46,327 bases of DNA, from NCBI GenBank assembly GCA_018333995.1, contig JAGXSG010000001.1, positions 1 through 46,327 on the forward strand, in the 5' to 3' direction. The notes beneath the pieces are model-generated. The model was given only the letters and a program-made list of their open reading frames with translations. It did not search any database and was not told the origin of the DNA. Below, one piece after another: positions 21,998 to 25,534 of this stretch. How positions within the stretch are numbered: position 1 is the first letter of the stretch; each line of letters opens with the position of its first letter. Both the position numbers and the translations under genes were made by a program. This DNA comes from Clostridiales bacterium. Lineage in GTDB: Bacteria > Actinomycetota > Coriobacteriia > Anaerosomatales > SLCP01.

Positions 21998-23824
<1,827 letters not shown>

Positions 23825-23957
23825 GGGTCAGATGACCTTTCTCATCCGCCGCGCGCGACGAGCGCACGACTGCTAGGTGTACGGTAGAGACCGCGGCTCG
23901 GATGTCTGCCGGGTCGTGGGCGCCACGGCCCCATGAACTCATGTCGATACCGGACCG

Positions 23958-24110
23958 CCACCGTGTTGTCCCCGCGATCGCCCGCGGGATTTGCCGGTGA
24001 CGTCACGACTCCGGTCGAGCCGGAGAGCCATCCGCCGAATACTTCGATAGACTCTCACCTCGTCGGCTGACCACCGCTCTCGCGGTGCTTGTACCGTCAG
24101 CCCTGGCGCT
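23958..24110 (-). ncRNA. glmS ribozyme-riboswitch
   Basis: The minus strand between glmM and glmS matches the glmS ribozyme. The cleavage-site motif A|GCGCC has A at 24110 and G at 24109. A P1 stem GGCTGAC/GTCAGCC is capped by CACCGC-GAGA-GCGGTG. The conserved core reads GACGAGGTGAGAGTCTATCG and then TTCGGCGGATGGCTC. A CTCCGG/CCGGAG hairpin and a final CACCG/CGGTG domain enclosing CCCGCG/CGCGGG follow. The order and length (about 150 nt) fit the family. Glucosamine-6-phosphate acts as cofactor for self-cleavage, which destabilises the mRNA. The 3' boundary is approximate. Confidence 0.93.
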
Positions 24111-24179
24111 TTCTCACGCTCACTTCGTTCCCGGCCCACCTCCATTCCGCAAACACGACCCGCCGAGTGTTCCGGCGAG

Positions 24180-24188
24180 ATTATATCA
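24180..24188 (-). promoter_or_regulatory. Extended -10 promoter of glmS
   Basis: TGATATAAT on the minus strand is a perfect extended -10 (TGn plus TATAAT), 11 nt downstream of the glmM stop. The -35 position (CTCGGC, 24203-24208) is poor, as expected for extended -10 promoters. Transcription would begin near 24173, about 64 nt before the ribozyme cleavage site, giving glmS its own promoter and a cleavable leader. Confidence 0.7.
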
Positions 24189-24199
24189 GCCCCACTCCC

Positions 24200-25534
24200 T
24201 CAGCCGAGCTCCGCGCGAACCACATCCACGAGCTCATCGACGATCTTGGAGGCGATCTTAGCGTCAGCGGCCTCGGCCATGACGCGCACGAGCGGCTCTG
24301 TCCCGCTCGCTCGAACGAGCACACGGCCCTCCTCGCCGAGCCGGTCCTCGGCGGCGTGTATCGCCGCGCTGATAGCGGCGCTTGCGCCGAGACGGCCCTT
24401 ATCGGCCACCGGAACGTTGATCAACACCTGCGGGTACCGGGTCATCACCTTCGTAAGTTCCGAGAGACGTCTGCCGGTCTGACGGATGACCTCGGCGAGC
24501 TTGAGCGCCGTAACAAGACCGTCACCCGTGGTCGAGTGCTCCATGAAGATGACGTGCCCCGACTGCTCTCCGCCAAGAAGCGCCCCGGACGCCCGCATTT
24601 GCTCGAGCACGTAACGATCACCAACCTTGGTCTTGACGAGCGTTATCCCACGTTCACGCATAGCGACCTCGAAGCCGAGATTACACATGACGGTGCTCAC
24701 CACTGTGTTGCCAGCGAGCGCCCCACGCTCCTTCAGATACGCGGCGCACACCGCCATGATCGCATCACCATCTACCTCGGCCCCGGTCTCGTCAACCGCG
24801 ATGACTCGATCGGCATCACCATCGTGCGCGATGCCAAAGTCGACCGTGTGCGAGCGCACAAGCTCCGTGAGGGGCGCCAGATCGGTCGATCCGCACGAGT
24901 CGTTGATGTCCATCCCATCCCACGCACAGTTGAGCGCGACAACGGTCGCCCCGAGCTCGCGCAAGGTCCGCGGGGTCGCGACCGAAGCCGCTCCGTGACC
25001 GCAGTCGACCGCTATCGTCATTCCGGTGAGATCGCCATCGATGCACGAGATCGCATGCGCGACGTAGAGGTCAACGGCGTCGGCGAGCTCACGCACCCGG
25101 CCCACCCCCGCGCCAACGGGCCTCTCCCAGTCGCGCTCCGAGATCATGAACTTCTCGATCTGGTCTTCGAGCTCATCGGGGAGCTTGAACCCTTCCCGGC
25201 TGAACAGCTTGATGCCGTTGTAGGTCGCGGGATTGTGCGACGCCGAGATCACCACCCCGCCATCGGCTCCGAGCGTGCGCGTAAGGTGTGCGACCGCGGG
25301 TGTTGGCACGATGCCAGCGATGAGCGCATCGGCACCGCCAGAACAGATGCCCGCTACGAGCGCCGCTTCGAGCATCTCGCCAGAACGCCGCGTATCTCGT
25401 CCCACCACAATGCGGCCAGCCCCCTTGTCACCAAGGAAGTGACCCGCCGCTTCCCCAAGCCTGAAAGCGATCTCCGGAGTGAGGTCCGCGTTAGCGATTC
25501 CGCGCACACCATCGGTGCCAAACAGACGCGCCAT
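24200..25534 (-). CDS. glmM: Phosphoglucosamine mutase
   Basis: A 444-residue enzyme interconverting glucosamine-6-phosphate and glucosamine-1-phosphate. S99 in VVISASHNPATYNG is the phosphoserine. DGDADR is the metal loop and the C-terminal RASGTEPLVRVMAE binds phosphate. ATG 25534 opens MARLFGTDGVRG, the standard N-terminus, behind GGGAGG. With glmS downstream it supplies UDP-GlcNAc synthesis; the ribozyme between them lets glmS, but not glmM, respond to product level. Confidence 0.98.
   Translation of the reverse strand: MARLFGTDGVRGIANADLTPEIAFRLGEAAGHFLGDKGAGRIVVGRDTRRSGEMLEAALVAGICSGGADALIAGIVPTPAVAHLTRTLGADGGVVISASHNPATYNGIKLFSREGFKLPDELEDQIEKFMISERDWERPVGAGVGRVRELADAVDLYVAHAISCIDGDLTGMTIAVDCGHGAASVATPRTLRELGATVVALNCAWDGMDINDSCGSTDLAPLTELVRSHTVDFGIAHDGDADRVIAVDETGAEVDGDAIMAVCAAYLKERGALAGNTVVSTVMCNLGFEVAMRERGITLVKTKVGDRYVLEQMRASGALLGGEQSGHVIFMEHSTTGDGLVTALKLAEVIRQTGRRLSELTKVMTRYPQVLINVPVADKGRLGASAAISAAIHAAEDRLGEEGRVLVRASGTEPLVRVMAEAADAKIASKIVDELVDVVRAELG

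Follow-up and report, generated by a model that had tools for sequence, protein, structure and literature searches.

The spacer between glmM and glmS in the window, by which we mean the whole stretch of 46,327 nucleotides analysed here, carries what we take, with a probability of about nine in ten, to be a canonical glmS ribozyme-riboswitch with an extended -10 promoter of its own, its ligand-dependent cleavage being predicted from the family. A covariance search gives RF00234, the glmS ribozyme, as the single Rfam match in the window (E 2.9e-21, gathering threshold 37 bits), and the match takes in the full model, positions 1-167 of 167, in agreement with the complete ribozyme proposed in the first-pass annotation. 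The location given there also stands, and only the 3' limit has to be moved, to 23946, slightly past the 23958 noted before (Table 1). Across the genome, the RF00234 search shows the ribozyme to be present in a single copy. The family cleavage motif places the cut exactly where it had been expected, and the P1 hairpin with its GAGA loop folds as claimed, with -22.5 kcal/mol and a z-score of -4.1. P4 is capped by GCGA, a GNRA loop with a pyrimidine at the second position, which is a known feature of glmS ribozymes (PMC2258182). All core segments, GACGAGG, UAUCGA and UCGGCGGAUG, are there. Among the aligned ribozymes of the order, AGCGCC, GACGAGG and ATCGA are invariant and UCGGCGGAUG is nearly so. 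On the whole, the helices of 41 aligned ribozymes have 95.1% of their cells paired, with changes on both sides in 22 of 36 pairs, while pairing falls to 31-48% when the partners are slid, and the observed values are reached by no shuffle. That the ribozyme of the window is a degenerate and inactive relic is thus most improbable: core, GNRA loop and P1 are intact and the helices covary in relatives, and nothing specific speaks for decay beyond a score (96.1 bits) below that of some relatives (up to 111.5 bits).

Compared with the glmS ribozyme of Bacillus subtilis, that of the window shares the full model, the cleavage motif, the core, the P1-P4 layout, the placement before glmS, the GNRA loop with a pyrimidine second, and the presence of RNase J, whose gene is found in the genome with 582.9 bits against a cut-off of 400. 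It differs in being G+C-rich, in belonging to a Coriobacteriia-type lineage of Actinomycetota, and in a P1 with an apical extension and an 8-nt bulge, all of which lie within the known range of the family. It adds an ordinary new member to a known family, from a lineage in which that family is less familiar. Metagenome-assembled genomes labelled Coriobacteriia or Actinomycetes are the closest named relatives, and we presume the order to be an environmental one within Coriobacteriia, for which Anaerosomatales is a possible name. The surrounding cluster, described before as actinobacterial, is confirmed in the order truA-rplM-rpsI-glmM-[ribozyme]-glmS-acpS-NAD(P)H-hydrate enzyme. The ribozyme sits in the 5' leader of glmS, between a glmM stop codon at 24202-24200 (minus strand) and a glmS ATG lying 121 nt past the ribozyme end.

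Table 1. Coordinates of the features of the glmM-glmS region in the window
Feature	Position	Strand	Basis
glmM (phosphoglucosamine mutase), upstream neighbour	24200..25534	-	TIGR01455, 559.5 bits, above cut-off
Extended -10 promoter TGATATAAT	24180..24188	-	sole TGNTATAAT in window; kept in relatives
SD-like GGAGGUG (in GGAAUGGAGGUGGG), no usable start codon; candidate STAB-SD	24137..24143	-	conserved position across 49 relatives
glmS ribozyme (RF00234), full model	23946..24121	-	96.1 bits; covariation within order
Self-cleavage site A24110/G24109	24109..24110	-	AGCGCC aligned to family cleavage motif; invariant in order
P1 helix: GGCUGAC/GUCAGCC with apical CACCGC-GAGA-GCGGUG and 8-nt bulge	24065..24102	-	fold
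glmS SD-like sequence GAGAAAGG, the gene's own	23836..23843	-	sequence
glmS (glutamine-fructose-6-phosphate transaminase), regulated gene	21998..23824	-	TIGR01135, 844.9 bits, above cut-off

The promoter lies just past the glmM stop codon, and transcription is predicted to start near 24173. Its core TGNTATAAT occurs once in the 46 kb of the window, where 0.05 occurrences are expected. Scanning the 260 nt before the cut and allowing one mismatch at most, we found TGNTATAAT in 35 of the order's 49 genomes that have the ribozyme (window included), always 49-75 nt before the cut, against about 0.6 expected from the 0.013 sites that shuffled sequences give each. In the remaining 14 the -10-like sites, TGCTACACT and TGCTAGACT among them, are weaker and stand 57-88 nt ahead of the cut. 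In relatives where some 480-1300 nt separate the glmM stop from the cut, the -10 is still located 58-75 nt before the cut; since the promoter lies downstream of glmM and stays near the cut even there, the earlier suggestion that glmS is controlled independently of glmM is a sound inference. Eight relatives that have no ribozyme retain TGNTATAAT or TGGTACAAT upstream of glmS, which indicates, from these sequences, that the promoter is the gene's own and predates the ribozyme, or is independent of it, in these genomes. No -35 hexamer is found at the TGATATAAT site; extended -10 promoters often do without one. A terminator-like hairpin, CTCGCCGGAACACTCGGCGGG (24159-24179, minus strand), stands directly after the -10 and overlaps the expected transcription start. 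All this also bears on the possibility that glmS is mainly expressed by read-through from promoters upstream of rplM-rpsI-glmM, with the -10 playing a minor part. The genes are co-oriented and close, and the scan gave no sigma-70 site containing a -35; however, the window has no second extended -10 of this kind, the site is nearly fixed in place and kept both with a distant glmM and without a ribozyme, the hairpin would hinder passage, and the ribozyme would cut such RNA too, so that we consider read-through unlikely. As a separate observation, in 26 of the 49 relatives GTNACC is repeated in tandem, as GTNACC-N5-GTNACC with the copies 11 bp apart, near the -35 position upstream of the glmS promoter (score 8 or more, reached by 4% of shuffles). 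Such repeats are seen for example in G029, G035, G037 and G066, are not obvious in the window, and resemble the sites of OmpR-family response regulators.

We then present an overall view of the ribozyme in related Actinomycetota, a survey that had been proposed as a check. Within the order, 49 of 69 genomes have it, upstream of glmS in all 49, and on the fetched stretch glmM precedes it in most of them. In the class, 52 of 246 genomes match RF00234; three of these are outside the order, two of them above the cut-off, among about 177 genomes sampled there. In the sample of the phylum it is scattered over 75 of 396 genomes. The ribozyme is therefore normal in the order and rare elsewhere in the class. 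The 20 members of the order without it include eight with a glmS 75-80% identical to that of the window, seven whose glmS is a different one, with about 50% identity, and five with a weak glmS match or none, and in the 14 loci examined of members without a match no trace of a residual ribozyme was seen. In L149-L154 (genera g6, g7, g11 and g15), where glmS shares no more than about 50% identity with the window's gene and the ribozyme is absent, gene and switch appear from their sequences to have been replaced together. No glmS ribozyme was seen in viral contigs that have a core motif of the Bacillota type. In addition, two plasmid records labelled Stenotrophomonas rhizophila (CP031730.1 and CP065518.1) have a glmS and a ribozyme 98-99% identical to those of Lysinibacillus, and probably come from mislabelled or mixed cultures.

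The part worth follow-up is an element that the first-pass annotation had missed, a Shine-Dalgarno-like (SD-like) sequence in the leader. When the 49 leaders are read side by side, GRRAGGRG stands out in nearly all of them as an element downstream of the promoter and ahead of the cut, frequently followed by YGCC. Against the 16S 3' end, the leaders reach a best pairing energy of -10.1 kcal/mol and their shuffles one of -7.0 kcal/mol (30 genera, Wilcoxon p 1.9e-9; shuffled without dinucleotide preservation, and with the best site in the stretch taken for cases and controls alike). Comparison stretches pair more weakly, with -5.2 between the ribozyme and the glmS SD and -6.4 in upstream DNA, and the relatives that have no ribozyme are without the element (mean -4.4, p 4e-5). 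In the window the element reads GGAGGUG; this copy occupies the conserved position, yet it does not exceed shuffles of its G-rich leader (p 0.43). The assembly contains no 16S rRNA gene in which the anti-SD could be confirmed. A separate actinobacterial family, f30, has a GGAGG element some 76-125 nt ahead of the cut (p 2e-7). Outside the phylum, among nine Bacillota and Fusobacteriota leaders, taken from plasmid records, six have the element, namely those of Anoxybacillus (GAAAGGAGGG), Lysinibacillus, Pusillibacter, Subdoligranulum, Fusobacterium and Cetobacterium; it is weak in Paenibacillus, and none is seen in Pontibacillus and Acetoanaerobium. The leaders of family f30 (L112, L118, L119, L121, L122, L127, L128 and others) also show a further conserved stretch, GATAAC..GGGTAGGC..GGACCGT..GGCTTGCGGG, about 15-75 nt before the cleavage site, which matches no Rfam family and may be a structured RNA.

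Two other roles for the SD-like element have to be weighed. It could be the ribosome-binding site of a short upstream ORF encoding a leader peptide, and in some leaders ATG, GTG or TTG is indeed close by; a start codon at a spacing of 3-12 nt is present in only 5 of the 49 leaders and missing in 44, however, and where starts exist the ORFs run from 2 to 143 codons with no common frame. With so few usable starts, and lengths and frames unshared, we reject this reading as very unlikely. Alternatively, the element could pair with the CUCC strand of P2, delaying or switching the folding of the ribozyme. The purine-rich leader is complementary to the pyrimidine-rich 3' strand of P2 (mean about -14 kcal/mol), and such pairing also predicts what is observed, namely no element in relatives that have no ribozyme. 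Yet own pairs (-13.97) are no better than swapped pairs (-14.15; p 0.755), the leader is unpaired in the consensus fold, and the distance from element to ribozyme differs between families, from about 20 to 125 nt. A conserved leader helix or coevolution with P2 is thus unsupported, and we hold a pairing of this kind to be improbable.

A third role, which we put forward tentatively, is that of a STAB-SD, an SD-like sequence that starts no translation and binds 30S subunits, blocking RNase J1 from the 5' end (PMC4113751). In B. subtilis, RNase J1 destroys the cleaved glmS mRNA (PMC3997798). By analogy, the extended -10 just after glmM would give a glmS mRNA with about 64 nt of leader before the cleavage site, on which a 30S subunit docked at the SD-like element would shield the uncut message from 5'-to-3' decay by RNase J. 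When glucosamine-6-phosphate is plentiful, it would bind the preformed core and serve as cofactor for the cut between A24110 and G24109; the downstream glmS mRNA would gain a 5'-OH end and be degraded by RNase J, both the ligand-dependent cleavage and the decay being expected from what is known of the ribozyme family. Self-cleavage would at the same time take off the leader with its SD-like element, and the shield would be gone. The conserved element may thus be a STAB-SD that protects the intact mRNA and is removed by the cut, a role to which we would give somewhat less than an even chance. It is possible, at similarly modest odds, that glmS ribozyme leaders of several phyla share such a built-in STAB-SD, the cut removing a ribosome shield besides making a 5'-OH end. 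The best comparison is the STAB-SD of cry3A mRNA in Bacillus thuringiensis: there, too, the SD-like sequence lies close to the 5' end (predicted in the present case), translation does not start downstream of it, and the organism has RNase J. The present candidate differs in that it lies upstream of a self-cleaving ribozyme whose cut would remove it, and in that its 30S binding and stabilising effect are predicted ones. The co-occurrence of element and ribozyme can be considered in the same way. With the ribozyme, the glmS SD is about 330 nt from the 5' end of the mRNA, while in the relatives without it the stretch from the end of the -10 to the start codon measures 32-74 nt in six of eight, and 114 and 197 nt in the other two. 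At such short distances initiating ribosomes could themselves protect the 5' end, and this would fit the presence of the SD-like element together with the ribozyme. Our literature search, outside which key subscription papers lay, found no report linking glmS leaders with STAB-SD.

Overall, control by a glmS ribozyme prevails in one order of Coriobacteriia-type Actinomycetota, where it appears to have been lost repeatedly, or replaced together with the glmS gene. Should the leader element prove to be a STAB-SD, this would explain why self-cleavage is needed to expose the glmS mRNA to RNase J, the intact 5' end being protected.
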